Assembly (NCBI GenBank): GCA_914767715.1
Contig: OU612074.1
Coordinates: 12,944,062 to 13,008,061 of the forward strand
Reading direction: 5' to 3'
Length of the DNA: 64,000 bases
DNA from: Membranipora membranacea
Taxonomy: Eukaryota; Bryozoa; Gymnolaemata; Cheilostomatida; Membraniporidae
Part shown: positions 3,701 to 53,400 of the stretch, piece by piece
Numbering within the stretch: position 1 is the first letter of the stretch
How the letters are laid out: the number at the start of each line of letters is the position of its first letter
The notes under the pieces: generated by a model
The model's input: the letters and a program-made list of their open reading frames with translations, nothing else
Databases searched by the model: none
Told to the model about the DNA's origin: nothing
Position numbers and translations under genes: made by a program

Positions 3701-6700
3701 TGCTACACTTACCCATGGGATCATCAAACCCTACAGAAGTTACAGGGTTGAGGTAGCAGCTAAAAACAGTTATGATGTGTATGGAGGCGCTATAATACAA
3801 CACACAATGACACTTTCTACTGGTTAGAGAATAACCTGTGTGGCTGATTGCTGTGTCTTTTTATCATAATTCCCATAAATATTTTTATTGATAAGAATTG
3901 ATGTTGATGTCTCAACTCTCAATCTCAAGATTTTGGCCAGTTAGACCTGTTTTCACATCCTTTGGTTCACATAATACATCTTAACTGTTACTTATGTGGC
4001 TGTTTTCTATTGATTAGCAGAAAGTCACACAAGATTTGTGTGATTCAATTATTTGTATGCTATTTCAGCACCTACTGGCAAACCTGAAAATATCGAGGGA
4101 GACCCAATCACATCTAACTCAATCACTCTGAACTGGGATGCCATCAATGCAGATTTAGTCAACGGGCAGCTAAAGTAAGGCTTACCCATATTTTCAGTAG
4201 GGTTTAAACCCCATATTTCTTCATCATGAAAGATAGATACCAACTTTAACGAGGATTAGAAAGAACAAGACAAGCAGATCTAATCAACCAAGGTGGTTGT
4301 CATATGAAGCTGGCAATTTTACCACATTACCAGATTACAATTTTGATTTTGGTTTCAGACACTATAAGATAACGAGCAATACCTCAACAGATTTGGTGGA
4401 AATACCAGGTAACATGACAACAAAGAAGAAATTCATTAACCTGAATGCCAACACATATTATGAGTTTAAGATCAGCGGATGTACAGTTTATGGCGGATGT
4501 GCGAACACAACTTTTACAGCTGAGAAAGTCATCAAAACCAAAGAAGCAGGTGAATTTTTACTTCCATTACTCAAGTTATTTTTTTGTGATTTTTTAACCA
4601 CAAATTTGGTAGTTTACATATTGTCCTTTGGATAGGAGCTCGGGACTTCTTCAAATTAGTCAGGATCCAAGGTGGTGATATTAGGCCTGGCTCAGTGTTG
4701 ACGTTATAGTAAATGATGATCTCCATAGTTTAGACTTATGTGGATTGCGCAAATTGCGATACTGTAACTGAGAACTGGTGCTGTATATTGAAAAGCCAAT
4801 GAGTGTTTGTTAATATAGAATATTTTCCGATGGTTGGCATAGCCTAGGGCCGGGTGTGTAAATGAGTTTTTGTCTGTTTTTAATATTTCCCTGATTGCTG
4901 ACACAAACAGGTCCAGGTGCTGTTGAGAAGCCGACTATATCACTATGTGATATGCAGGGCCTGCAATGTTTCACTGTGGTATCAGTGAGTTGGGCTTATC
5001 CAGAGTCTAATGGTGTCGTCATTACCGGCTTCATAGTCACTGTAACTAGTGATAGAGACGTGAGTTAAAGATCAATGGTGTAATTCATTGATCTCTTTGT
5101 GTTTTTGGGTACAGGTTTGCCACAAACTTCGCTAAATCACTGGGTGCATGTTTCTACGGATAACATTTAGGGCTTTTTGTCAGAGTCAACATCACTTCTC
5201 ACATAGATCTGTAGAACAGGTGATTCATGTACACTGTAACACTTGGTGTAAAGCAGCAATGTCAGGTGTGGAGGAGTTGATGTCATGCTGTCTCTAATAA
5301 AGTTGTTTTTTCTCACTTAGTGTTTCATTATGTAATCTACAGTAACATTACTTTGCACTTCTGCATAGGATCATGTCTTTCTGAGGGCTTCACATGAGGT
5401 TTATAATGGATGAGAGGGTATTAACAAATCTGATAATTACCTACACGCATTGGTTACTATATCTGGTGGCAATAACGACGATAAATGCTGTGCTTGTTCT
5501 TTTATGCAATCTATGATTTGAGTGCTTAATTTATGTTGGTTGCACTATTGTTGCAAGTCTTGGATTTGGCTTTGTCTATCAAAATTTCAATCGTATTTTA
5601 ACACACATAGTCATAGAAATAGTTCAAGATGTGTAATCGATGATTTCTGTCATCAAGTTTCTCATTACCTGCAGTACATCCATACTGCCACTGAGAAGTC
5701 ATTTATAGTAGAACAAGACATTTTTCTGAATTTGATTACCAACTTTTTTAATGAAATTCAAAGTTTTTGTAGTTGCTGGATCGGTCAGATACTTGATGGA
5801 AGATGGTCCTTTCGAATCAGACCGAATAAAGATCAAATGGGATCCACCATCCCCACTGAATTCTGTTGTTGCTTACGGCGTGAAGGTATCACAGGATGGG
5901 ACCTGTGTACAATCAATTATTCTCGATTGTGACTCTTGTGAGGTAGGCTGATGTTATATGTATCATTACTTTATGGTTTTCTTGTCATGTGTGTAAGGAT
6001 CCATGTTAGTATCACCATTCCCGAATTAGCTTAAGATGTTACTTACCTTCACCAGATTCGCGCTAATATCTACATAGATCTTTGTTACTTTATAATCTCA
6101 TCAGCAATAAGTGTGTTATAAGGTATTGCGATATGTTTTATGGTTTATAATCAATTTTTTTTCTCATTCTCAGCGTTATGTGACATTTGGTTGGCAACAA
6201 ATAAGAAGGTGTGGTGATTTCTTTCCATTCCTTTGTAGACGAGGAAGGGAACAACCAATTACACTCATTGGGAGGAACAACTGGGCTGTGGGGACCTAAT
6301 TGTGCGACAAACAATAGAGAACGTTACTGCGACCCAACAACTGACGACCACAAATTTAACAGATAATACAGAATATCTCATAGAGGTTTATGCTCTGAAT
6401 ACTCGAGATCTGTCTAACCCAGAGACCCTGACACTCAAAACCAAAGTGGCCTGTGAGTTGAGCTGTACTGATACCTATGCCTGTTGATTATCATATCCTA
6501 GTATTGATTGGCAGTTGTAACCTCAGAGTGCAGAGTGGTTTGCATAATGTCACATTACCAACATATAAGCCAGAAAATTAATGTGTATATAAGGTCAAAT
6601 TGAGAATCTGCTGAGGTTGCAACCTTTGTCAGGGAGTTTATACCACAAGTATTGTTCATATTATTTTCGGTTAATTTTGGTGAAACTTGCCTATTAGATC

Positions 6701-8983: not shown

Positions 8984-10751
8984 AAACAAAAAAAAAGTTT
9001 TTGCTTGCATAAACAATGGAGCAATGTTATTGGTCCTCAAAGAGTTTGAAAATACATAGTTTTGGGGATTAAATTGGATTAGACATCACCATTGAGTTAC
9101 CCTCCCCGAGAGTTTCAGATCTGGTCTATGAGTTTCCTACCTCTCCCAGAAGTACAGGGCTGACCCGTTCAGAATTATTAGCTTTGCCCAAGTTGCTATT
9201 GCAGCAAAGAAATCATATCATTTCCAAACTATCCCAAAATGTAATATTCAATTGATAAGCATCTCTTATTCAGGTTTTTACATCAGCTTTAAATATAGAG
9301 AGTGCAGAAAGTTTATTAGCAAAAACATTTTCAGTCAATGAACTAACTCACAGATAATTAAAAAACTCATTGTGGAAACATGATTATTGATGTAGTGATG
9401 ATAAATCTCATCTGAAATTATCAGATTCCTTTTTATATGTGATGTTTGTCCTTGTAGGATAATGCGACATTATGCATTGTTTCTGATACTGTCACTAAAT
9501 TCCATATAAAGTAATTTGATCTCACATGATACGATTCGTTTATTGAATTTATCGAACAAATTATTGGCGATTGCTCAATTCCGGTGTATTGATTCAACAA
9601 AAACACAAAATAGAAGTGGTTTTGAATTTCCTTAGATCTTTGCTAACTTCTTCTTATAAGGATATTGATCCCTTGATGAGGTGTCCTTGCCATAAAACAT
9701 CATTCACTCTATCTTATTTTGACTCTTCCTCCGACAGTCTGAACTAAAACACAAAAAATGCTAGCAATTTATTTAAAGGCGGCTGTGTTTCCCATCCATC
9801 CCTTTATCCTGCTGATCGGATGTTGGACTACCTAATACATTCCTGGTAAAGAGGGTCTTTGCTGTGAGTAGCTCTGTGTTGCATAATTTATTGAGCCCCT
9901 ACAATTATATCAAGTCACAAAACCCTTCTTTTTTACATTAATTGTGAACAAGATCACTGCAAATTTAGCACCCTCTTTAATGTCGAAATGCTCTCTGACA
10001 TATCTTTAGAGACATGCAAATGAATTAGAGCAACCTCTCATTTATTTTTTATTTATTGTCTGAGCTGGGAACATAAGCTTATTAAACAACGGGCATAGAT
10101 TATTTTTAATTTGGCATATACAACTGGAGTATCTAGATTAAATCAGGTTAACAATTAACATGCTCAAAAATGATTATTGATAGTTTTAAGAACAGAAATC
10201 CCAGAAATTTACACGCAGATGGCTGTTAGCTACTCCAGACAGTTTTTCAAAAACAGTATTTACTATACTCCTATCATGTATGGTTTTGCACAGACAGAAA
10301 TTAGCACGACGTGGTAATCAATGTGAAGTTTCACAGATTGAGGGTTAACTGGCACACTTAATTAAAATAAATATTAATCTAGATCAAAAATTATAACTGA
10401 TAGGTCATAAATTTTCTAAATTAGATGTGATTTAATTCTCAGAATATGAATTATTATCTATGCACTATGCAATATGAATAAAAAACAAACATAAACACAA
10501 AGTGGTCAACAGCTGACACAATAGTTTAAAACTTTCCTTTCAATCGATTACTTTAGATGACAAAACATTTATGACAGCACACTATACCTCACTGAGATCC
10601 CCAGATAGAGTTATAAAGCATGTCAGAAGAGAGGATTACTATAAAACTCACTGTGCAGTAATGTCATAATGTAAATACAGAAACATCTACCTGCTTACTG
10701 TCCTCTGAGGCTAGAGTAGTACTGAGTGACAACCCTGCGAAATTATCTTTA
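8984..10751. other. Intergenic, no gene seen
   Basis: AT-rich sequence with frequent stops on both strands. I found no domain-bearing exon, RNA gene or clear repeat in it. Confidence 0.55.
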
Positions 10752-11826
10752 ATGAAATTGTCCTTTAAGATTACACTAGTGATCGAATATGTCAACATTA
10801 CACCATTTACTGCAACTACCGCAGAGGTGAGTACAACACAGGCAAAAACAGCACCTCCACCTGCAGCACCGGCAACTACAGCATCGGCAAGTACAGCACC
10901 GGCAGCTGCAGCACCGGCAACTACAGCACCGGCAAGTACAGCACTGGCTAGTACAGCACCGGCAACTGCAGCACCGGCATCTGCAGCACCGGCAACTACA
11001 GCACCCGCAACTACAGCACCGGCAACTGCAGCACCGGCACCTGCAGCACCGGCAACTACAGCACGACAACTACAGCACCGGCAACTACAGCACTTTCAAG
11101 CTTGCTATTGGCATCATGGTGATAAAAATATGGCATCCTTGTAGCTTGCCCAGGTATCTGGCGTGATGGAGGAAGCTGCTATTTTTTCATCAAAACTACA
11201 AATGATTGGTTTCCCTCCAGAGAATTGTGCAAAGAGCAGAATCCGGCTGCCGATTTGGCTGTGTTTTCAAGCTTCAAACTTTACACACTATCTTACACCA
11301 GGAAGGTAGAAATCTAGCTATGCTAATTCATAAAGATGTTAATAAATGATAATTCATTATAATGATGCTGATAATCAATTCATAAAATTGACGTTAAACT
11401 CATAAAAATATCATATTGATTTGGTTGTCTAAACATGATGCTTGTACATCATCGGCAGACAACTGAATCTGTTCCTTTTCAATTTCTCCACTTGACCTGA
11501 GCAGTCTCTTTCCAAATGAGATTACTGCTAATTATGAAAATAATTACAATTTTAATCTAATTTTCAGAAATAAGTTTTCTCCCACAGGTGTAACTCAGTA
11601 CACATGGGTTGGAGCTTCCCAAACAAAACAGGGAGCACAAAGCATCTCGTGGCTAGACGGAACATTAAATGGGATTGATGATTCAGACTTTTGGTCATAT
11701 AATCAGCCAAATGATGTGTCAAACAGCAAACTACAGTGTATACACATGAATGCTAATGACCCTTTACTTCAGGCCTATTACTGGACATGTAGCAAAGATG
11801 ATAGATGGGCAGTATGCGAACTATAA
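10752..11826 (+). CDS. C-type lectin-like protein with Ala/Thr/Pro stalk (frame disrupted)
   Basis: The lectin domain is in two exons. Exon 11154-11305 follows a TTGCCCAG acceptor and gives the N-terminal half (WRDGGSCYFF, W..SRELCK, ADLAVFSS). The second runs from about 11588 to the stop at 11824-11826 with hallmark residues YTWVGAS, WLDGT, the loop motif NQPND, the Cys before HMNAND, and W.C....WAVCE. The first exon ends in phase 0 while the second needs phase 1. Shifting frame near 11274-11277 gives a more lectin-like continuation (QTLHTILHQ) and the right phase, so a small indel is likely. Upstream, 10752-11083 encodes about 70 residues of Ala/Thr/Pro/Ser repeats that could be a mucin-like stalk, but a good donor at 10827-10833 (GAG then GTGAGTA) means this repeat may instead be intronic. 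Calcium and sugar binding cannot be predicted safely. A poly(A) signal overlaps 11828-11833. Confidence 0.65.
10830..11095. repeat. 15-base-type minisatellite (ACAGCACCGGCAACT family)
   Basis: Imperfect tandem units alternating GCACCGGCAACT, GCACCGGCAAGT and relatives, in register with codons for Ala-Pro-Ala-Thr-Thr/Ala/Ser. The repeat phase slips near 11071, so the last two units read in another frame. The opposite strand is also open (a Cys/Arg string), which is a composition artefact. Confidence 0.85.
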
Positions 11827-14800: not shown

Positions 14801-15149
14801 CATTGATACTCCAGATATGGTACTCATTTTGATCAATCGCACAGGATCAAGCCTTGTTATGCTCACACGGTATGTCAGAGAGCAGATAAGTTACAAACAA
14901 AATTATGCTGTGTCAAACATTTCTACATACCCTGTAAATACAGATCAGTTTTACTGCTGGTGTAACACTGATATCAATATACAACATGACATGACATAAC
15001 ATCATTCTATGGGGTAAGTAACAACATCATAAATACTAATGTAAATAGAAGAACCTTGTATAAACAAATTTCGCAATAAATTTCAAAATAAGGATACTAG
15101 CTGGCAAGATCCTTATCATATGACAAAATTCTAAAAATAACCTTCAAAA
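11834..15149. other. Intergenic, no gene except a SINE-like element
   Basis: Short ORFs on both strands with no domain content. Apart from the tRNA-derived element near 12.5 kb, I note only a small GC-rich inverted repeat at about 13038-13066 (GGGAGGGT and ACCCTCCC arms around a 7-base loop). Confidence 0.5.
12466..12660 (+). mobile_element. tRNA-derived SINE-like element
   Basis: The head resembles a tRNA pol III promoter: a box A-like stretch (GATGCAATTGATAG, close to GGCGCAGTTGGTTAG), a middle part TAGGTCTTTCAATCAAGAGG that could form an anticodon arm, and a box B-like GTCCGATTCT. It lacks a proper tRNA acceptor stem. The body end is not defined; the right boundary is a guess. Confidence 0.55.
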
Positions 15150-15215
15150 ATGTTTGAAAGGCAGCCGCAGTCACCAAACATCGTTATAATTATCAAACTT
15201 CAACATATCAGCATC

Positions 15216-18200
15216 ATGCACCCAGGATACGGCTTCACATACTTACTCCTTGTGGTCATGTTAGGAGTAGACAGTGCAGCTCTCTATCCTCAGCAAGGAG
15301 AGGAGCTCACAGCCACAGCGTGTTTAACTGACTCATATATATCAGCTCAGTGTACAAGAAAAGATCAGACCATCAATATTCTACATGTACACTAGGTATA
15401 CCTTGAGGTGTGTCATCAGCCTGCTGTCGAATTCAATGAATGTAAACAATCCAGGTATGCTGTTCAAAGTGAGTTAGTTTCCTTACTGAGCGTAACTGTT
15501 TTATTATCGGCATAAATAAAAGCTGTGATTTTAGTTTGAGGTTATCATCACATCATTCTATAATAATCTTTATCTCAGTAATATGAAGAGAAACTAAGAT
15601 GAGGCTATGACCTTTTTTATACTTTTCAGTAAGCTGCTTATCATATATGCAACGGAGAATAAAATGGTTTTGAATTTTAGAAACACTATCGGCTAGTGTT
15701 ATTACTATAATACTTATAAAATAAATAGCATGACTATCTGTGGAGGAATTACATCAGTATATAACTTTGGTCAGTAACTATATCTAACATGAATTCTGAG
15801 AGCTTTAACGTTTTGCATTGGCTGGTGTCCCAGTAACAACCTTTAAAAACTCAGGCAAGCTATGTAACAAAATATGTTTACAAGGGGTCGGATGTATCAA
15901 AGGTGGATCAAGATGAGAAATTTTTTCCAGCAATCGTGCATAAAATTGCCATGTTTGTTCAGGGCCAGATATGTTTCCTAATCCATGAATATATATCAGT
16001 GGGTGGTAATTTATGTTGGACCTAGCAATACTCATTTTAATTTGAAGGTTTTCCTATAGTGTGAAGGTTTTTTTTTTATTACAGGGACACTCAAAGATAC
16101 AAATTAACTCCATTAGTGGAGTTTTAGGGTGACAGACTAATTTTAATATTTATTTGTTTGTTACACAGTGTATCAGGCACTCGTACTGCAGTGACCTTAT
16201 GTAATGACCGAGTTACCTGTCAGATACCCATCATACAGATTGAGGCTCACAATAATGATGTAAATAATCAGGGTCAGGATCAGTACATATCGGTAAGTAA
16301 TATCTACACTAACATGAGCGGAATTTATAAATCTACAAACATGCTTCCATTAACTTCTAAGAAACCTTGGCAACGCTGGGTTCTTCGCCTACCTTTTTGG
16401 TATGGGTGTCAGGATTGGGGATATATCTGGTATATTTTGGAACAAGCCAATTCAAAGAACTTGGACACCTAAACAAGGACGGGTTAGAAAACAAGAATAG
16501 AACTGTTTAAACTTGAGTTAATCCCTGATTGAATATTGGGGCTGTCTTGCATCACACATAATTTAATTTGAACTTTAGCATGAGATGTAAAACCCTTTTC
16601 CCTCGTGTAAACATGCTTTTTTTACAGGACATGATACACTACTGTGCATATAACCGAACACTGAAATCGGAGGCTTCCATGACCAGCATGCAAGTCACAT
16701 ATCTGTGCAAAGGTATATCATGTTTTAGGCACTTAATATAGATACTGAAACTGTGATTTGATGTGATTGATACCGATTTAATTTGTGAAATGCCTTTAGA
16801 ATTAACAAAAAATGCATTATGGAGGGATACGTTAAATCCTACCCAAAAAATATAAATGCTTAGTGTTAAGGTAGAACCACACTGGCGATTGTTACAAAGC
16901 GAAGCGTCAAGGTAAACATTTGCGTTAGATGAAAAACCATTGTGTTGCTGGCGAATTTGCTCAGTACAGTATCTAAATATTTTAATATTTGGACAAATTC
17001 GCTCAGCGTCAAATGATAAAAACCTTGTTTGCTTAGATTCGCTAAGGTTTCGCTTTGCCGCATTGTAATAATCGCCACTGTGTTTCTACCTTTAGTATTG
17101 AAATGTCTAGGGTCCTACCTATCCAGCTCATTGCAAAATTACATTATCACTTCAGAACAGTTTGTTTTTGCCTTTTTATGTAAACTATATAGAAGTCTCT
17201 ACTTTTAGATACTAACAGCTCTACTTGCAAAAAGTCCGCCACAACACTGAATCTAGTTTTCTGGTTTTGCCCCATTACCAGTTTATCATTACACTAATTT
17301 TGAGTTGATTTTTTATTGTGCAGGTGGTGAGACGATCCCAGCTATAACACAAAATCGATCAGCACGCTGATCACTTAGGTACATGCTCTCAGGTGTATCT
17401 CCGAACAACAGAGTATAAATTACTTTATGTGGCCATGTGTCATATCTTGAAATTAGAAATGCCCCAATTTGAATTGCGTTGATTGAACCACAAATCTTGT
17501 GAATCCATCCAACGAGGAGAATCCATTGCTAAAACCACATTTGACAAGCCATATGTTTGAGCAAGGTCAGCTAAGTTCCCGACTTAACAAATATAAATAT
17601 ATCATAACTATCGGTGATTACACTGTGCCGACAGGTGTGGAGCCAAAGCACAAGAAACCCTACATTGAAAGTGTTCCAGACCCGTCACAGTGTTCTGAGT
17701 ATGCAGATAGCTGCAAAAATTCTGATAGGCTAGTGGTCTGTCAGAGATATTGCGGAGTTTGTGAAGATCTCCAGGCAATTACCGCTGTCAGTCACGAGTG
17801 TAAAGATGGCTCTCTACTGTACCGAATCAGAGCTGCAGCTGATCCAGAACACTGCAACTCAGGATTTGGCAGAGACAGATGTCAAAAAAAACATGTGGTG
17901 TGTGGGGAGGAAGCACAACGTCATCAAAAGCCTCAACTACTACTCAAACAACTACCATTTCTGGTCAGGCATGCAAAGAGTCCTCTCCATTGTATGTATT
18001 CAGGGTCACTTCTGATCCAGACACCTGTGACTCTGAATATTACCGAGACTTATGTGCTAAGACTTGTGGGGTTTGTGGAAAAAGCACAGCGCCATTGACA
18101 ACCTCAACTACTCCAACAACCTCGACAACTCAAATCATCTCGACAACTTCAACAACAATCTCTCCTTCCAAAAATGATATCATAACAGCGCCTTCAGCAA

Positions 18201-18824: not shown

Positions 18825-19345
18825 ATTGTTTTTGTGTCACTCAAATAAAATGTATGATTTTACAGTAACTTTTAACTATATTTGTTTACCAAATGAAAAA
18901 AAATCTTGTCACCGATGATCTCCTCCCATCACAAGGAAGTCAATTCGATACCGTCCGAATTTCCCATAGCGACAAACTTGAATAAGACAGTCCTCTATCA
19001 ACGATTGGCAACGATGCATGAGGAGAAGATAATTCAGCGGTGCTCATTCTATTTATCCACTTTTTGATTTTATTCTGTCATGGTATATGTTTAAATATAA
19101 ATAAATATTTATGGGGAAATTGAGGTACCTTCACTCATTTATCTCCAGATCACCAACCACCTTTGTTAAGAGGGATGTTACCAATATGTTACAACCAGTG
19201 TTACAATTTAGGGGATGCAAGGGGATTGTGTTCCCCTTCCTACTTTGTGTAGAGGGATGCAACCCCCCCTATATATCATAACCATTAAATGGCTAAAATA
19301 TAGCTAAAATTGATGCATTTTCATTTGTAATGGCCAGCTCCACCC

Positions 19346-19458
19346 TGGACCCTGCCGGGGACCCTGCCGGGGACCCTGCCGGGGACCCTGCCGGGGACCC
19401 TGCCGGGGACCCTGCCGGGGACCCTGCCGGGGACCCTGCCGGGGACCCTGCCGGGGAC
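19346..19458. repeat. 12-base GC-rich minisatellite
   Basis: Nine or so near-identical copies of CCCTGCCGGGGA in AT-rich surroundings. Because the unit is 12 bases, long frames are open on both strands (Gly-Asp-Pro-Ala one way, Ser-Pro-Ala-Gly the other). No signal peptide or flanking domain supports either as a protein. Confidence 0.9.
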
Positions 19459-19599
19459 CTAGGCGGCCTGGTTGGCACCCCTTTCCTCATAATTTCCACT
19501 ACTAACACTGATTACAATCATAGATTGTACAAAAATGAGTGGGGATATATGAGGATAAACATTATAACTGATTTGTAGGACTCTTATGTCTTAATATAT

Positions 19600-24284: not shown

Positions 24285-24808
24285 CTGTCATAAATTTAAT
24301 CACAATTAATAAAAAGTTTATAAACACCATAAGTTTGTTAAATAGATTGGGGCATGTTTGGTCCTTCAACCTCTGTGGAAAATAGAATGAGTGGTAATGG
24401 GTATCCCGGATTCCTTAGCCTTAGTTCCGTACCCATCCATCTCATGCTAGCTTGAGATTTAAATGCCCACCCTAATAAGAGAAGAGTGACTCATAAGAGA
24501 AAAACCAAAACTATCAGATGACATAATTTAAACGATAACAATCTAAAAGCTTTGGCAAGTGTCCAAAAAGGAGATTACATTGGGGATTGGAGAGGAAATC
24601 ATTATCCTTGTCGACTCTGAGCATAGCTGGTGTGTTGAGCTCACAACATTCTAAACTTTTTTTATGAGGTAAGGTTTGAGGAAGTGAGCTACGTTGCGCA
24701 ATAGCAGGCTTCATGAGTTATCATTTACATTTCGCTGAACCATGATTAGTATGTTGTATGTTTTTTTTCAGTTCTTTATGCTCAAGTCTGTTATTTTCTT
24801 TTCTCTAG

Positions 24809-27800
24809 ATGGCAGATTATAAGTTTGACACATTGCTATGCCTACCTACACAGCAAAAAGGTTCTGCGCTAGCTGACACACTTGATGCGCAAAGTTTGGA
24901 TGGTCTACTACCAATGCTCAGGAGGAACACAGTCAATGGAACACTACTGCATAAAATGGTCTCAACAAGAGATCTGGAATCGATCAGTGTTGTGCTTCAG
25001 AAAGTTCCAGAGAAGAGCAGTCTGTACGAAGTTCTGAGGATCGTGACAAGTGGCGGTCGTTCTGCGATTCATGAAGCAGCAGCGCTTAACCAGTTCATTG
25101 CAATCAGATGTTTACTGGATGGTCTAACCAATGAACATACGTTAGAGATCTTACTGCTACAAGATGCTGGAGGTGCGACAGCTCTTCATGTCGCTGTTAG
25201 CAAATCAAACATGGAGTCGATCAGCTGTATCTTAGAATTGTTATCTCAGGAACAGAAGCTCATTTTAATGGACACACAGAACTGCCAGCGTGAATCGGTT
25301 ATGGATGGGTTCTTCCAATGTTCACCTCAAACTAGAGAACTGTTAAAAAGCTACGCAAACAGCGCAAGTACTTTTAAGGTCAACCGTACAATGAACAGCT
25401 TCAAGAGGTAACTCAAATTTCCAATCAATCAGTCACTACTCAATGGTCTTATAAAAAGAAGGTACCTTAAAATATATTGGGCTAATATATATGGCAAACT
25501 TCTACTTTATGGTTGGTCTTCACATTACGTTTAACTAGATTCTACGGGCTAGAGCCAAATACCAGGTCTTAATTTTGTTTCAATTCTGTTTTGTAGCTTA
25601 AAATTTTGAATCAAACAATCCAAGTATGTAACCATTCTGAATTGTTTTAGGTTTCCATCAAGACAGATGAAACCTGAGTTTCTGGATAATTTACTCATAT
25701 CATTTCAACAAAAGGTAAACTTTCTGCTGCAGTCATTTTCACCTTTCCAAGCAACACCCTTCAAAGCAACGAAGGTCGGAAAGCCTCATTCGTTCTGCTT
25801 GTATTCGTTGTGATCCATCGGTATCTCTTGGAAGGCATTCTGTATGACATGATATATCAGACCAACATGACATGCTCAGTATACATACATTAATAGGAAG
25901 AGGTTTGAGCATTTAAAATGGCCAGGCTGGGTTTAGCAGCTCTGTCAAACAGACATTTACATTGGTTAATTTATACTATTGATAAAGTAATCGAAATTCT
26001 AATTATTTTAGGATGCAAAGCAAGCACTGGATTTCATACTGAATAAGTTGAGACACACTTCTGATGTGGACGAAGCGGTGCTTTCTGCTGTTCTAATGGC
26101 AGTACCAGAATCAGATCGAGTTGTTTTACTCAAGTCTCACAACATATTGGGGACTGCATTGCACTGTGCCGCGTCCCGACACCAGAATAACATTGTGCTT
26201 TGTATACTCAGCTCACTATCAAAGGAGAATGCTTTCCAAATACTGAAAATTGACAAAGATGACGGTAGCACTATCATGCATACCTGCTTTCACGACAACA
26301 ACACAGAAATTCTCAAAGAGGTTTTTCAACGTGTTAATGAATCGGAGGCCATCAAACTCCTGGCAATGAAGGACACTGCCAAGCTAACTTGTATTGATTA
26401 CGCTGTGAGAAAGAAGCACACAGCTGTAATCCAGCTGCTTCTAGATGAGATCGATGTTACCGCACTTCTACACAAGGGACTTCTGAGAACTGCTGAACTG
26501 ACACCACTGTCAACAACGAGGAATGAGAAGGCCAATATCTTGGAAGATTTGATGGGAAATGGTGAAAGTGGTAAGTAGTTATTATCAAAATTTGACAAAG
26601 GATAATAAGATACCAAATCAACAGATTCCAAACTGAAAAAATGACAGAAAAATCAAAATGACAGACTTCACCTTGGTCGTTGGCCAAACATCACTGAAAA
26701 CTTAGATCTACTTGGTTACAGAAAACTATATCATTGAACATGCCATGTTTAATTAATGATGGTTCTTTTTTTACATTGCAGCACAACTGGAAGCTGTGAA
26801 AAAGTCGTACAGTAACTGGAGACGGTCTGAGCCCATTCGCTGCGGGGTAACCAAACTTAGCAAACTTGGTGAGAGTGTAGGCATTTGACATTTGACATTT
26901 GGCATTTGACACACAGCAAATTTCTTGCGTAGAACTTTGTTGAACCTTTACCAATCATGGGAATTGTTATTATTCCCCTTAAATCTTTTGAGGGGAAAAA
27001 TGAAATCACAGCAGGATAGTCTGAATGGTGGGACATGCTTGTGAAAGCTTCACAATTATTACGTAAACAGTAACTCTCACTCACAACCTTTATTCTTTCC
27101 TAATTTTCTATCCTCAGGACTGAAGTATATTGGTATGGATGATCTAGTTAATTGTACTCATTGTCAAGAAACTTTCCATCTGTTGTCCAAAGCAGACGAT
27201 AAATTGGATAAACATCTCAAGTAAGTTGCGCCCTGTAGTATACATAATACAATACATACAAGTACAGGGGTGCTTTCAGCCGAGACTGCTTTTTACGACA
27301 TCTGATTATCACACTAAAGAAAATTACTTTTTTAAATTTTACCACATTTTTGGCCTCTACCAGTGCCAGTGTCTACACTGAATTTCACTACTGTCATCGA
27401 TTGTTATAAATCCATCCAGACATTGGCTTTTTTATAACTATCAGCCCAGCTGTATGTCTTTCAATATACCTTATACCTGCAAGGAAGCCGATATCAGGGA
27501 AAATCAACGGCATTTAAAATCGTGAAGCTCAGATTATTTGGAGATCATACATAAGGCTAGGTTACATGGGGTGATGATCATTGCGTTTGTCTTAAAACTG
27601 ATAAAAATATTTTGTAGTTCAGATCCAGGGAAGTGTAAAGAAGAAGAGAACGGAGTTAGTACCAAGGTATGTGGTGATTAATGTAACGAGGGGAATTCAA
27701 TCATGGTAAAGTAAACTCATTTAAACTGCAATGAGATCCTGTCGCTGAGCCTTTAAATAAAAAGCAATTCCAAAAAATATTTCTGCCTTCATACTTTATC

Positions 27801-30800
27801 TACATTCTTCAGGCTGGACATTTCAGACGATTTGATGAAAAACTGGTTCACTATGATGAAAGAAAGGAAAGTGATCTTGACCAAATGAACCACCAAAAAG
27901 AAGGTCAAGGTAAGGAATTTGTAATTTTAATTTAATTATTTAAATTTAGTTCTGCTTTACTAGCTTTTTATCAAGATTGAAAATGCCCATAGTGAGAATC
28001 AAGCACCTCAAGACAATAAGGTCTCCAACATCCCATATCTGTTTCGTACTTGTTGTTGGTGACCATGACAAGTCAGTTGGAGGAAAAATTGGAGTCGCTA
28101 GTTAGATTCTATGTTTGATTGTATGAGCTGGTTGATTTTAGCAGACAAGACATTAAAGAACAGGCCATGTGTTTCTCAACACTTAATATTTATTATTTTA
28201 AAACATTGCTTATTTCCGTTGTAACAGAATGCACTGCAGCTACTATTGGACCCCAATCTGAGGAGGCTGAGCATCATTACAGCAAGCTTGTTAATCGCTT
28301 AGCGTCAATGAAGAATTTAAAGCCGCGAGATGCCACTAGCATCAATTTGATTGCTCTAGCCCAAAAAGGTAAGCATTTTTTTACAGCCTAACTTACGAAG
28401 TAAGTCCACCGAGGTATAGCACATTCAAAATTAGCAAAACTAATTAGGTTCTTTTATAGCTTGCTCAAAAAGGCAAGCTTGAAAGAATATTTATTGATAG
28501 CTATCCTTGGTCTCTGCTTTCACGAACATATTTATTATTTAACATTAAACAATCTATTTTTATCAGGTTGTTACTATACTGGGATCACAGATCTCATCCA
28601 GTGTGTCACTTGTCAGGGAAGATTCAAACTATCGTCAGATCGGGACCATGATGTGAGGCTTGTTCTGATACATACAAGGTGAGACAAATACAAAATGTGC
28701 AACCACATGATACTAATCCGATACCGGTGTTGAGCAATATGTGTTTTTTTTCTCAGTTTCTCAAAGAAAATGCCAACACTGAAAATTAAAGTAATCATGG
28801 CGTTACTGTCTTATATGTTGTGAAGTGCCTAGGATATTGAATACGATTATCTTTGTTGTTTTAAGCTACAAAAGCTGTTTGGTGGACAAACCCACCGACA
28901 TAACATCTGAGCCTGAGAAAGATATCCGTGAAGAGAGTCTAAAGGTGAGTAGATATTCTCTTCTGTATTCTTCTTCTTCTGTCGATGGCTTGATACTGAA
29001 GATCTCAGCTTCCCGATTTATAGCGATCGGTTGATTGTTCTCATTGTTATTTTCATGCTTTTCGCTTTTTTATCAGGTGTTTATGAATTGTCTGCAACTT
29101 GAAAAAATGCTGACAAATCTGAGAGTACCAAATCAAACCAGTGATGCCCTGCTCCATCAACTTGATGGACTCAGGCTTTGCTTAATAGCAATCCCACCTG
29201 GGAAGAGATTGGCGCTTCTCATGACAAGTAACGACCTTGGGAGCATAATGCACAAGTTGGCTGCTATTCAAGGGAGTCTAGAGATGATAGAATGTATCAC
29301 GAATTTCATACGGAGAGAAAACTACTACCATTTCATGAAGATTCAGGACGAATGTGGGCAGACAGCGATGCACGTGGCCGCCAGAAACGGTCACTTGGTT
29401 GCAGTTGCTTGCATGCTAGAGCACCTTCTTCCGACTGATCGAGTCAGAATTCTCGAAATGAGAGACACAGGACATCTTACACCGTTCCATCATGTAGTAA
29501 AGAGGGACTTGCAATGCAAATGGATCTTCCAAAATCTTTTGCCTAAGATTGAACCTGATCACCTGATCAGTTTTCTTGAGCTGCAGCTGAACCTAGAGCA
29601 GGGGATCACTTCGGAAACACTTGAAACTCTGAGGGAATACAAGCAGAGAATCATCCCAACTCCTTCTGCAGGTTAGATAATTGCTATCACTACATGAGTA
29701 AACTGTGCAATGCATGTAGTATTTGGTTTTCAGATACATGAAAACTGGTTGAGGTTTGACCAGGGACTATAGATAATATAACTATAGTCTCTGGTTTGAC
29801 TTCACCTGACACCTGCAAATAACAGGGAATTACAAATGACAAATATCAGAAATCATTCACAGTATATTCACAAAACATCCTAAACCTTAAGACCCAAACC
29901 CTAAACCCTAAGACCCAATAACATTAGTCTAATAATGCTCATTTTTTAGCAGCACAAATTTTCTATTCACATGCAAAATAGTGCGTCTCCAAACACATAA
30001 TCTGTGACTCTTTAAACCCCTGATTTTGTTGCCAGACACAGAAAAGCTAAGAAGATTGATAAGAAATCAGGACACAGAAGGTTTGAAGAATCACTTGAAG
30101 AGCAGCACAGACAAACAGTCAGTAATCAGAGAGGCCCTTGAGTTATCTCTAACAAGTGAGCAGATAGAGGTGCTCTCTAACATCAGTGAACAGTATGTTA
30201 TACCCAGAGACCAGACAGTGTGTGCCCCACGAGGTCTTGTATTCTACTGTGCTAAGGACAGAGTAGGGGCAGAGGAAGAGGCAGAGAAGATGAGAGACGC
30301 GCTGACATGTGCTGGGTTCAGTACTCATGTCGAGGAATGGAGTAACTTTTATACACTCAGGTTAAAGCTCAGGGAAATGGTAAGTAATCCCCAGAGGTCT
30401 CAGTAGCTTGATTAACAAAAATCTAACAAGTTATTATCAAACAGCAATACGAGTCAGGAGTTACTTTGAGGGTCTTAGCCGTACTGAAGAGAATGCCAAG
30501 CTTTAGAGGTTTTTTCTCACCATAGTTATGGCTAAAAGTTGCTATATGAAAGCAGCAACATTATGCAATTTGATTAGTATAATGCCACTTTTTGCAGTTT
30601 TCAACTTTTGAGTTACTTCCGTGGTACGCTGGAAAATCTGGAAATATTCCATGCAATGACTTGACTGTTTCAAGAGTTTTGCAATCAAAATACTGTTCCA
30701 ATATTGATCTCCACACAAAGTTTACCTACAGATTGAGGAAGTCAGTAAGAAGACATCAGTGTTAGTTGTCTGTATTATGTCACATGGTATCAGAGGTCAT

Positions 30801-31840
30801 GTACATGGTAATGGTGGTAACTATGGCAGCATCAACACAGTAATGTATGATATGAGATGTGAACTACCAGACTATATACCAATGGTAGGTACATTCTTCA
30901 AAGGAGCAAGAAAGGATATTCCTGGAACATGTATATTCCCTCTGTGGTGGCGGAGGGATATTGCAAATGTTTGGTATTGAGGCGCCATGCCGCAACCGCG
31001 GAGCCTCGATACCAAACATTTGCAATATTCCTCCGCCACCACAGAGGGAACATACTTGTTCTAGGATATTCCATGGTTGCACAAAGTGTTTCTGATGGGC
31101 GCCAAATAAAATTTCTAGATTATTTTAGCCAGATGAATTGTCTGCGTTTTTTCATAGAGGATTTAAAAAGGATCATACTTTTGTAAGCATAAAAACTCCT
31201 GCATGCAGGTAGAAATAGGATAATGACTTGTTCTACACGTTTATTTATCCTCAAAGTTTACCTTTGCTAGATACTGATGGTTCAGGCGTGCCAAACAACA
31301 CAGTCTGAAAGTGATAACAGTAGTATCACTGATAGCAGACAAGCAGGATTCCATCATTCATATAGAGCTAACACGGGGGAGACAGAACATATTATCCTCA
31401 GGCGTCCCCATACAGCGCTACTCCTATCTACTATACCAGGTATGTAGTAACATATACAATATCTGCGGGATTCTAACATCCTTTCAGACTGCTATTTCAT
31501 GAATGAGAGATGTCAGGGTACAAATTTGTCTTGGCAACATAAGTGAGTTCTCAACCATTTCTTAAACTTGGAGGGAGGCAACAGGAAGAAAATGGAAGCA
31601 TACATTCTTACATTCTTAATCATTTTAGGTGGCAGATCAATTAGAGGGTTATACACATCAGCATTAGCTCAAGTTCTGAGCGAATCAAAAGAGAAGCAAG
31701 AGCTGAGGGGATTACACAGTGCAGCCGTTAGGAAAATCAAGAAGCACATTGACTACTCAGCCTATGAACAGATACCCGAGTATAGAGATACATTTGACAA
31801 AACTTTGTACATCGGGGGAAATAAATCAAATCCTAAGTGA
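24809..31840 (+). CDS. Ankyrin-BIR-BIR-ankyrin-caspase protein
   Basis: Fifteen exons: 24809-25407, 25651-25714, 26012-26570, 26782-26868, 27118-27220, 27618-27666, 27813-27909, 28228-28368, 28567-28678, 28866-28944, 29077-29671, 30036-30379, 30732-30884, 31271-31439, 31629-31840. Every phase agrees and the total is exactly 1,121 codons. Residues about 1-400: ankyrin-like repeats (SAIHEAAALNQ, TALHVAVSKSN, TALHCAASRHQ). About 413-478 and 533-612: two BIR-like zinc domains. About 631-828: further ankyrin-like repeats (TAMHVAARNGH). About 880-1120: caspase fold with His961 (MSHG), Cys1001 (QACQT) and a p10 end (YEQIPEYRDTFDKTLYI). Predicted cytosolic, with no signal peptide. By family, caspases cut after Asp and BIRs often bind caspases or IAP-binding peptides; both modules in one chain suggest self-control or a sensor protease, which is inference. 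The start ATG follows a run of stops. Confidence 0.9.
26782..28944 (+). other. Two BIR-like zinc domains inside the caspase gene
   Basis: BIR 1 spans exons 26782-26868, 27118-27220 and 27618-27666: a helix with KKSYSNWRRSEP, then LSKLGLKYIGMDDLVNC, with zinc ligands in the pattern C-x2-C-x16-H-x7-C (the typical BIR pattern is x16 and x6). BIR 2 spans 28228-28368, 28567-28678 and 28866-28944: HHYSKLVNRLASM, then LAQKGCYYTGITDLIQC, with ligands C-x2-C-x19-H-x6-C. The aromatic/Gly motif before the first Cys (LKYIG, CYYTG) is typical of BIRs. An exon of charged linker (27813-27909) separates them. Confidence 0.8.
30036..31840 (+). other. Caspase catalytic region
   Basis: The p20-like part starts near RGLVFYCAKD and GFSTHVEEWSN (exon 30036-30379), carries the catalytic His in LVVCIMSHGIRGHV (30732-30884) and the catalytic Cys in ILMVQACQTTQ (start of 31271-31439). 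The p10-like part has ALLLSTIPG, GLYTSALAQVL and the C-terminal YEQIPEYR. Compared with typical caspases (STVPGY.SWR...GSWF), the loop after TIPG is about six residues shorter and lacks the SWR Trp; an Arg in GGRSIRG may still serve the S1 pocket. Confidence 0.85.
30914..31072. repeat. Long foldback (inverted repeat) in a caspase intron
   Basis: Left arm 30914-30983 and right arm 31003-31072 are reverse complements over 70 bases with about eight mismatches, mostly at the outer end; the loop is 19 bases (30984-31002). It lies in the intron 30885-31270 between the exons with the catalytic His and the catalytic Cys. It could be a short foldback transposon or the source of a hairpin RNA. I see no transposase and no clear target-site duplication. 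Confidence 0.9.
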
Positions 31841-50000: not shown

Positions 50001-50478
50001 CAAGGTTGTTGTCTTTGCCTGTGTAAGGATTTGTTCTTCTCACACTGGTTTTACGACAGGCCTACGCTCACAACATGATTTACCTCTGACTAGTTATAAT
50101 AAAGTCAAGTCACGAGAAGGGGAAGAGAACAAGAGTTAAAATTCCATCTGGGCAGCCCATGTCTTCACTATTCACGCTCATCCTGCAATAACTCCTCTCA
50201 TAAACATTTCAGCCTCACTGTAGTAACCTATGGGAATCAGGTCTGATTGTCATAACCATAGCAATACATATAGTGTATTGTTTTTTCATCATGATCATAC
50301 TTTTCACCCTACCACAGCATCGTTTTTTATAGATAGGAATACATCATTTTTTCCTCGACCTTTACAGGGTTAAATACATCAGGTTATCTGACGATGCTAG
50401 CCCACATTGATCGGCAAAGTCTGAGGATCCAGACTACCCGCGTGTACGTGATGTTTACCTATCTCATATTCTATTATA
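38040..50478. other. About 12 kb without a supported gene
   Basis: Only short, domain-less ORFs on both strands. The left end should hold the transporter promoter. I see a diverged direct repeat (39095-39193 and 39312-39420) and a small tandem duplication (AGGTCAGGGCTCT, about 45187-45212). The minus-strand open stretch at 40293-40583 has no recognisable domain. Parts of 48-50 kb look like degenerate former coding sequence, but I cannot name an element. Confidence 0.5.
39095..39420 (+). repeat. Diverged direct repeat, unit about 100 bases
   Basis: The unit TTACAAAACAAATTTTTC, then CTGAGAA, GT.AAAGTGAAAG and a closing ATTTTCAAAACA, occurs at about 39095-39193 and again at 39312-39420. A shorter motif, TTGCTTGATTCAACTA, occurs at about 39079 and 39193. 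Confidence 0.7.
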
Positions 50479-53400
50479 GTTCTCTCGATAGTAATACAGA
50501 CCTGTACGGCCTTTGGACCGAGGAAGGAGGAGCTAGAGACTTTATATACAGCAGCATGTCTCACAGATTCTCAGATTGTAGTGCAGTGTGGGTCTAACCA
50601 GAAGATAAAAATACTCAGCGTAGCCTACTCATATGAAGAAAACTGCAACACAGCTACCGAAGACAATGAATGTAAACAAACAAGGTATGTTGTCTCTGTC
50701 TCCCTATTTGCTAGCCTTTAATTTATCTAAAAAGCTTAAAGGCTACACTGAGATAACCTGGCTGCAACCAATGTGCCGACCCCTCTGAATCCAACTCCGT
50801 TCCGCATATCAAACAAGATGGGGCATTGGGCCGCCATTCTTTCCTACCCTAATGAGCTTGTTGGTCTTCATTGATGTTCAGATGTTGCACGAGACCCTAT
50901 GTCTGGCTCACGACACCAGCATTTTCTGTCACTGCACATCCTCGTGTTATGTTTACAGCTATGCGGGCTTGAACCACATGAATGATCTCAATTCGCACGT
51001 CTTGTTAATGTGACACCTTCCTGTTTTTTCTATCAGTTTCACATAATAAAAGTATGGTGAAAGTATACATGAAATAATCGAATCAAAAGTGCACAAAGGT
51101 GCTTGCTCAATAATTAAATGATGCTACTTTGACGACAGCAGTCAGTTGATATATGGCCATAATATGGTGTGATCAACTTCAAAGGTTTTAACAAGAAGTG
51201 TTCAGTAAACAGCATGAAGTTTGGTAAAATATGTAAAACCAAATTCAATAGTAGGCCTATGACTGTCACGTATCTCTCTGTATTTCTACAGTACTTCTTT
51301 GTCACGGAGCGCTCAGACAGAATGCGACGGGAAGAATTACTGTCCGTTCCCCATCACCAAGATCAGCACTCTAAACAATCAGGCCTCCCTCACTCTGGAG
51401 AATAGAGAAAATATACAGGTATGCTGTTCGTTTGGTAGCATCGCTCATACTATCCGCATGAAAAAGCCTTGATAATTGAGATGTTTTGTAACATTTGTTT
51501 CCCTACAGGAGATCATTTTGAGCCCCATTGTTGTGCTAAGTCGAAAAAGAAATATCCTACTATAGAAATATATTTTTCAATGAATCACCAAACATAGAGA
51601 GTGAATGATACAAACTTCTATAATGGGCAACTACTGAGACAATTTTTGGAGATATTGTGTTAATTCATATCTTTTGTTTATTTTTTTAGTATAAATTAAT
51701 GAGATGTTCGTACAACAGAATCTTACAAGACGAAGCTCCGATGAAGAGTATGCTTGTCGCGTATCAATGTCAAGGTAATTGAAAGGTCAAATCAGAGGGT
51801 GTATTGTACGTTAATCTAAGTCTTCTAGTTGAGAAGGACAGTTCTGTCACCCTCCTCTTCTTACATGGCTGAATGATGGAAGAACGGTTCAAGCTGTGGT
51901 TCGACACTCTGTGTTTAACCCTTTTTGAACTAGTGAGTGAGCCTTTCTCGCTGATGAACATATAATCTGCGGATGCAAGGCAAACAATTCATAGACTGCG
52001 TTCGGTGGACAGATTTAATTAGACCCTATACCTAATGTCAGCACTCTAATCTCCTTATCATTCTAAACCCTGTGACCAAACTACTACGGTGAAGACCATA
52101 CTAACCAGCCGTTTAACATTTGCTGGGTAAAGGTTTGACTCATAGCCTCTACTCGAATTCCAAAACCAGCAAGCAGACATCATACTCGCAAGGGGAAGGA
52201 TTGCAGTTGACGACTCAAATCTTATTGTCTGCTAGGCCCTAAGCCGAGGTCACTGGCAACTTCAAGTCTTTATCTCATTGACAAACGTGAGACAACTCCA
52301 ATTTTGAAAAATATTTGTGTACATGGGTTGACATATTACTTTTAAATTTCTGCATGTTGGGTAATAGTTTCTTACCGGCTGTGTATTGTTCATTATTTGG
52401 TCATGGACTATAACTGTTGTCCGGTCTTTTTCCACCTGTAGGCCCTACTTTATTTCAATTCAATGATTGGATGATCCCATTTCATGTGGATTCTTTTGCA
52501 CTGTACCTTGTCTTTTGGCCAAGAGATTCTGAATGGATTTCCCTGGTTTGACCTTCATCTATTGCTAGGCACTAAGGCTAGGAGCATGACTTTGCGCATG
52601 TCGCTTAGCCTTAGGGTTCTATGTCCCCCGTTTCTTTCCACCTTTTCACTTATTTGTGGTTATATTTCAGCCGTTAACCTCAGCTCAAACGAGCAAATGT
52701 TAAAGTATAACTATTATAGCCTTAGATACAAGCGAAATGTGAGAAGAATTGATAATGGTGAGGGTGGTAGGCTTCGCAATGTGTGACAGATGGAATTTTA
52801 TTTAGCTTATGAAGAAAGTTTAGTTAGATTAAGCCTTAGTGCCTCAGCTCATATTGACTGTCGACTCCCTACTTTTATTATTGTCTGTAATTGCTCTTTC
52901 AGCTGCTAAGCCTAACTCAAACCAATACAGCAGTGAAGATCCTCATAACCTCAGATCCCAACGTTCACTTTATGGACGTGATCAGGGCGTTGGGTCATCC
53001 GCCTCTAACGATGAAGATCAAGGTGATTGTCAGTCTTTGGTGGCGATTTGTTTTTATAAACTTGTGTTGCTCACTGCTTTTCGAACCAGTAATATAACAC
53101 CAATCACCCTTCACTAATATACACACATAGCATTGCAGCTCGTAGCAATGCTTTTATCATGCTTTCATATGTTCATTATTTGCTTCAGTTTCTGGTTTAA
53201 TTGTAGGTGTACGTACTCTATCTTTAGTTGCGAAAGCATAATTACTGCATTTAATTTTGCATGTTTATGATCAGTTTCAACTGCCTGCTTATCGTTGATA
53301 TATTACCAAAACAACTAGATACTGACCATAAAGAGTTTCTCTGTGAACTCATAGCATATTAGTATCCCAGCTTGGCGCTGGGCTAGTTGTGTCGTAGAAA

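Follow-up and report, generated by a model that had tools for sequence, protein, structure and literature searches.

A gene in a 64,000-nucleotide stretch of the bryozoan Membranipora membranacea (assembly GCA_914767715.1, contig OU612074.1, positions 12,944,062 to 13,008,061 of the forward strand; hereafter the window, to whose numbering all positions refer) is predicted to encode one chain in which ankyrin repeats, two BIR domains, further ankyrin repeats and a caspase domain follow one another. This architecture is real and unusual and represents, as predicted from sequence, a variant of the hybrid caspase kind. IAPs, the BIR-bearing caspase inhibitors, and caspases, the proteases of cell death and inflammation, are normally regarded as opposing, separate molecules. 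We asked how firmly the domains and the joins between them are supported and which modes of action are consistent with them.

Domain order and exon structure of the predicted chain

Comparison of the whole chain with Pfam profiles revealed Ank_2 (E = 1.3e-18, 67.8 bits, cut-off 27.3), Peptidase_C14 (3.5e-17, 63.3 bits, cut-off 21.4; residues 901-1111, profile positions 15-233 of 233) and, in two stretches, BIR (7.5e-14, 52.5 bits, cut-off 22.9). Chance matches were ruled out by these profile scores together with the reversed chain, which yielded 0 families at E ≤ 0.1. The profiles bear out the order proposed in a preliminary description of this DNA, which had read ankyrin repeats, two BIRs, ankyrin repeats and a caspase with catalytic His and Cys from the letters, and the domain-profile search suggested there as a check returned BIR, caspase and Ank all above cut-off, with a BIR signal thus present. 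At E ≤ 1, Pfam returned nothing in the chain for CARD, DED or death domain, for RING or UBA, or for NACHT or LRR, and no death-fold domain was seen in three open frames upstream of the ATG that were picked by eye.

The caspase part has as its best solved relatives an ancestral caspase-3/6/7 reconstruction (3e-4), caspase-3 (0.0027) and caspase-8 (0.0083), and H961 within SHG and C1001 within QAC align with the caspase-3 and caspase-8 chains. R904 and Q999 also align with solved caspases, where we take them to be the Arg and Gln of the Asp-binding S1 pocket. Inspection by eye gave D1009 (SESD-N), D1015 (SITD-S) and D887 (IPRD-Q) as candidate self-cutting sites.

Searched as separate pieces, BIR1 matches Pfam BIR at 3.4e-9 (37.6 bits) and BIR2 at 5.1e-5 (24.2 bits), both above the cut-off of 22.9; the BIR2 match is partial (profile positions 17-53 of 70) and does not reach the His-Cys end. 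A weak second match of the BIR2 region, to zf-C3HC (NuBaID), has 17.6 bits and lies under the cut-off of 22.2. Zinc ligands in BIR domains are spaced C-x2-C-x16-H-x6-C. BIR1 keeps four ligand residues, C449, C452, H469 (x16) and C477 (x7 instead of x6, one extra residue), whereas the zinc end of BIR2 is degenerate, with C579 and C582 followed by Val at the expected His, H602 three residues later, and C608. The earlier description of two zinc-ligand BIRs needs a correction for the second, whose zinc end is not canonical. A match of the BIR2 piece to MALT1 (0.045 and weaker) was taken as chance.

Each of the three ankyrin exons scores Ank_2 by itself (values in Table 1), and the third piece extends into exon 12 with its match staying inside exon 11. 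For exon 11, a structural model based on the aligned sequences of the three ankyrin exons reached a mean predicted local distance difference test (pLDDT) of 75.7, and the best 50 of its 940 Foldseek matches were mostly designed ankyrin proteins or their complexes (probability 0.97-1.00), with none of the 940 at E ≤ 0.001. By eye, the ankyrin repeats of this exon measure about 40 residues, which is long, and in the shallow model each repeat has three helices, not two.

The chain itself arises from fifteen GT-AG exons on the plus strand between 24809 and 31840, which join into 1,120 residues without a stop (Table 1). To build it, GT and AG sites no more than 4 bases from borders read by eye were combined and the stop-free combinations kept; three further stop-free variants (1,119, 1,121 and 1,122 residues) differ solely in neighbouring donor sites at exons 3 and 4. 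This rebuilt model agrees with the preliminary description in its fifteen phase-consistent exons and in its length, and the junctions 27666-27813, 28944-29077 and 29671-30036 are identical in the two. Introns range from 132 to 397 bases, and G+C is 0.43 in exons vs 0.35 in introns. When splice sites were ranked within their intervals by a leave-one-out matrix built from the sites of the model itself, 11 of 14 donors came out as the best GT and the remaining 3 as the third, while 7 of 14 acceptors were the best AG, with that of intron 3 ranking second and that of intron 9 third. The predicted start ATG at 24809 immediately follows a pyrimidine-rich, acceptor-like tract that ends in AG (24789-24811), as at an internal exon, so that a further upstream exon, untranslated or coding, is possible.

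Table 1. Exons of the predicted ankyrin-BIR-ankyrin-caspase gene, in window positions
Exon	Position	Strand	Residues	Content
1	24809..25407	+	1-200	Ankyrin block A; Ank_2 6.7e-7 on this piece
2	25651..25714	+	200-221	Linker; basis phase and GT-AG only
3	26012..26570	+	222-408	Ankyrin block B; Ank_2 9.4e-8
4-6	26782-26868, 27118-27220, 27618-27666	+		BIR1; Pfam match 415-477
7	27813..27909	+	488-520	Inter-BIR linker without Pfam match
8-10	28228-28368, 28567-28678, 28866-28944	+		BIR2; Pfam match 557-593
11	29077..29671	+	631-829	Ankyrin block C; Ank_2 5.4e-7 within exon (piece 631-883)
12	30036..30379	+	829-943	Linker and first part of caspase large subunit; R904
13	30732..30884	+	944-994	Caspase part; catalytic H961 at 30783-30785
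14	31271..31439	+	995-1051	Catalytic C1001 (31289-31291) in QACQT; candidate cut sites D1009, D1015
15	31629..31840	+	1051-1120 and stop	Rest of small subunit; R1056; Peptidase_C14 match reaches 1111

One gene or several

BIR2 and the caspase very probably belong to one predicted protein. Introns 4, 5, 8, 12, 13 and 14 lie within the Pfam matches to BIR1, BIR2 and the caspase, which supports those joins beyond phase. Intron 10, leading from BIR2 into ankyrin block C, is only 132 bases long, combines the best donor of 12 with the best acceptor of 51 and lacks each of five poly(A)-like hexamers. No in-frame ATG occurs in exons 9 and 10, nor in exon 12 before 30290, which is already inside the caspase.

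The layout of the exons bears on the same question. In the alignment of BIR1 with BIR2, intron 4 coincides with intron 8 at column 35, each in phase 1, and introns 5 and 9 lie two columns apart, both in phase 2; this correspondence points to a single multi-exon BIR unit that was duplicated. The BIR pair is flanked by exons 3 and 11 (559 and 595 bases), each of which begins in phase 0 and ends in phase 1. They resemble one another over 136-157 residues (tblastn 1.9e-10 and 5.2e-10; 26% identity), and both also resemble exon 1 (1.1e-5 and 1.4e-6). Because the BIR introns coincide and the flanking ankyrin exons look like diverged copies, one gene is favoured: an internal duplication of the BIR pair flanked by copies of one ankyrin exon would be easier to explain within a single gene. 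No second copy of the gene was seen in the window, where tblastn matches outside their own exons link only the three ankyrin blocks and include no other BIR or caspase.

Several observations weigh against a single chain. The joins between domains are held by phase and splice consensus only, and acceptor ranks are weak in introns 11 (11th of 69), 7 (13th of 35), 13 (14th of 39), 5 (18th of 31) and 12 (23rd of 41). Nine ATGs lie in frame in exon 11, from 29083 onwards, and a shorter Ank-caspase transcript without BIR, starting in or just before this exon, is possible and compatible with the start codons. Because ankyrin repeats generally look alike, the resemblance between exons 3 and 11 carries less weight than the BIR introns do. 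Finally, the protein and contig searches made returned no relative with the same domain order. Among candidates sharing most words with the query, 0 of 7,988 scored at E ≤ 1e-3 for residues 390-1120 and 0 of 7,993 at E ≤ 1 for the BIR2-Ank-caspase part; a search with exon 12 gave, as one of 7 candidates, a 99% identical stretch (P0001, source label lgn, from a public contig of 1,792 bases) that continues into intron sequence at both ends. Because of this intron sequence, P0001 is judged to be genomic and to offer no evidence for splicing; it would come from the same or a very near genome. Pattern matches in viral_contigs (viruses; 3) and genome_contigs (bacteria and archaea; 59) included no relative, and these collections say little about animals.

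Taken to their conclusion, such observations would describe two or more genes or transcripts arranged head to tail, for example Ank-BIR followed by BIR-Ank-caspase or Ank-caspase, with the single chain being an artefact. We regard this as quite improbable. It draws on the inter-domain joins and on the acceptors of introns 7 and 11 just given, on poly(A)-like hexamers in introns 1, 5, 6-9, 11 and 13, and on in-frame starts at 28308 in exon 8 and at nine places in exon 11, but it meets a short intron 10 with top-ranking sites and none of those hexamers, the absence of in-frame starts from exons 9-10 and, up to the middle of the caspase, from exon 12, and coinciding BIR introns and alike ankyrin exons that point to the growth of one gene. 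Even a break at intron 7 would still keep BIR2 with the caspase.

The preliminary description had held that a protein with both modules is not a standard family, and in keeping with this we found no BIR-caspase protein in the literature searched, which comprised sources accessible in part and excluded most subscription journals. A database entry with the same domain order may well exist.

Possible modes of action

The reading that we tentatively prefer, and to which we give not quite an even chance, is that of a single-chain initiator-like caspase in which an ankyrin-BIR-ankyrin platform replaces the death-fold prodomain and activation comes by clustering. Its starting points are read directly from the DNA, namely the open, phase-consistent chain, the Ank, BIR and Peptidase_C14 matches, His961, Cys1001 and the BIR intron positions. 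From these, all fifteen exons would be joined in one mRNA, the ankyrin blocks would bind a signal or partner, and the BIRs would serve as zinc-held contact modules rather than as active-site inhibitors. The BIRs of NAIP, as well as BIR1 of XIAP and of the cIAPs, act as contact modules in this way. The platform would then cluster copies of the protein such that the caspase dimerises and switches on. The caspase would go on to separate its large from its small subunit by a self-cut near D1009 or D1015, perhaps with another near D887 ahead of the catalytic part, and cell death or inflammation would be the outcome. An ankyrin sensor wired directly to death or inflammation, one of two possibilities raised in the preliminary description, is plausible for this chain. 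Against the clustering reading stand the points made above against a single chain, the deviation of QACQT from QACxG and the failure of p10 alone to match a caspase in the PDB, and the nearness of BIR2 to XIAP BIR2 does not favour BIRs as contact modules.

The other possibility raised there, a self-restrained protease, would have the BIRs fold back and restrain the caspase, in the same or in a partner chain, so that it stays inactive up to the point at which the ankyrin part detects a signal or the linker is cleaved. Put differently, the BIRs would clamp the caspase, the ankyrins would read a signal, and signal binding or self-cleavage would free the enzyme, placing sensor, brake and executioner in one molecule, which we consider rather unlikely. 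BIRs of XIAP and of insect IAPs inhibit caspases, and here two BIRs precede a caspase in one predicted chain, the first of them with its four zinc-ligand residues kept. For BIR2, the best single stretch is XIAP BIR2 (4.1e-4, 23.7 bits; whole-chain E-value 3.7e-4) ahead of NAIP (0.0012, 22.2 bits), while by whole-chain E-value, which sums over NAIP's several BIRs, BIRC1 (NAIP) is best at 1.3e-9. This alignment with XIAP BIR2, however, ends before the peptide-binding groove, where by eye Ser stands at the first Trp position and the second is not covered by the Pfam match, itself short of the His-Cys end. In cIAP1/XIAP-type BIR3 the groove is lined by two Trp, and against chain 3uw4, which is of this type, both are replaced in BIR1, by Leu and Ser, so that BIR1 resembles a contact module more closely than an active-site inhibitor. 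The best solved match of BIR1 is likewise BIRC1 (NAIP; 1.3e-6 over the whole chain, best stretch 5.2e-4, 23.4 bits), with XIAP chains at 0.17 and weaker. BIR-binding motifs begin with Ala, and the candidate small-subunit starts behind D1009 and D1015, N1010 and S1016, do not resemble such an Ala-first motif. Self-restraint thus keeps the nearness of BIR2 to XIAP BIR2 on its side and has the replaced Trp of BIR1, the short BIR2 match and the lack of an Ala-first start against it.

It is also conceivable, albeit unlikely, that the protein is an inactive decoy, a non-cutting caspase-like regulator that would bind other caspases or adaptors. The caspase-like regulator c-FLIP is of a comparable decoy kind. 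Similarity to PDB chains is weak, and p10 alone matches no caspase there (8 matches at E 0.75-1.5). By eye, the small-subunit stretch STIPG-GRSIRG has a shortened loop before the next helix, but it keeps Ser-x-Arg in register with what we take to be the corresponding caspase-3 motif, STAPG-YYSWRN, such that R1056 would presumably stand in the place of the S1-pocket Arg. The catalytic His and Cys, the Gly after the His, R904 and Q999 are kept as well, and the Pfam match extends to the last position of the profile, all of which speaks against a decoy. The active-site pentapeptide speaks for a decoy, as QACQT deviates from the QACxG motif that the accessible text on amphioxus hybrid caspases describes them as keeping (PMC2575513). 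Because a caspase of amphioxus whose motif reads QSCRG nevertheless promoted cell death in HeLa cells, as stated in the accessible part of another report (PMC3196919), QACQT would lower the likelihood of activity and yet leave activity possible.

If the clustering platform is the true reading, BIRs can take over the role of the death fold as a prodomain for recruitment, which would fit a view of BIRs as adaptors, not inhibitors. If the built-in brake is true instead, the caspase-IAP balance of other animals would be folded into a single one-chain switch.

Surroundings and comparison with known systems

Two introns of the gene carry repeats. In intron 13, an inverted repeat at 30906-31080 (81-nucleotide arms, 85% complementary, 13-nucleotide loop) looks like a small hairpin mobile element, and a 24-base probe allowing up to 3 mismatches matched nothing in the window but these two arms. 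At 29879-29918, in the intron that separates ankyrin block C from the caspase, lie two copies of the 19-base sequence CCTAAACC(C/T)TAAGACCCAA, which is telomere-like (CCCTAA). Downstream, a minus-strand open frame at 32110-32589 matches MFS_1 (Major Facilitator Superfamily; 3.3e-9) and lies tail to tail with the caspase gene. Elsewhere in the window, plus-strand frames at 2240-2467 and 6239-6484 match fn3 below cut-off (1.2e-4 and 6.4e-4) and are perhaps exons of one extracellular protein; short frames at 15141-15392 and 50452-50718, with no Pfam match at E ≤ 1, have by eye a common ACLTDS pattern followed by similar spacing; and low-complexity frames occur at 10662-11141 (Ala/Thr/Pro-rich) and 19297-19575 (PAGD repeats).

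Among known systems, the predicted protein resembles initiator caspases (caspase-8, -9 and -2; C14A) in its catalytic His and Cys, the order of large and small subunit, the candidate Asp cuts and a long N-terminal region, and it differs from them in a chain without a CARD, DED or death domain match, in its ankyrin-BIR-ankyrin prodomain and in QACQT. With the IAP family (XIAP, cIAP1, DIAP1) it shares two BIRs, of which BIR1 has the C-x2-C, His and Cys and BIR2 has XIAP BIR2 as its best single stretch. Unlike IAPs, it has no RING or UBA match, two groove Trp are replaced in BIR1, the zinc end of BIR2 is degenerate, and the BIRs are fused to the very enzyme class that IAPs inhibit. NAIP (BIRC1), a BIR-NACHT-LRR inflammasome sensor, is the best solved chain for both BIRs by whole-chain E-value and likewise joins BIRs to a repeat sensor, whereas the present chain has no NACHT or LRR match, carries a caspase and has its single best BIR2 stretch in XIAP.

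New domain companies for BIRs have been described in oyster, where IAPs of new architectures, BIRC9-12, have been reported (PMC8917759); these are alike in that respect and unlike in that the term "caspase domain" is absent from the accessible text of that report. Closest in kind are the hybrid caspases of other invertebrates, for which the accessible texts describe TNFR-caspase and LRR-caspase hybrids in amphioxus (PMC2575513) and, in Lingula, RLRs that carry a caspase domain (PMC8998645). While none is described in those texts with BIR or ankyrin, they resemble the bryozoan chain in joining a caspase domain directly to a sensor or receptor part.

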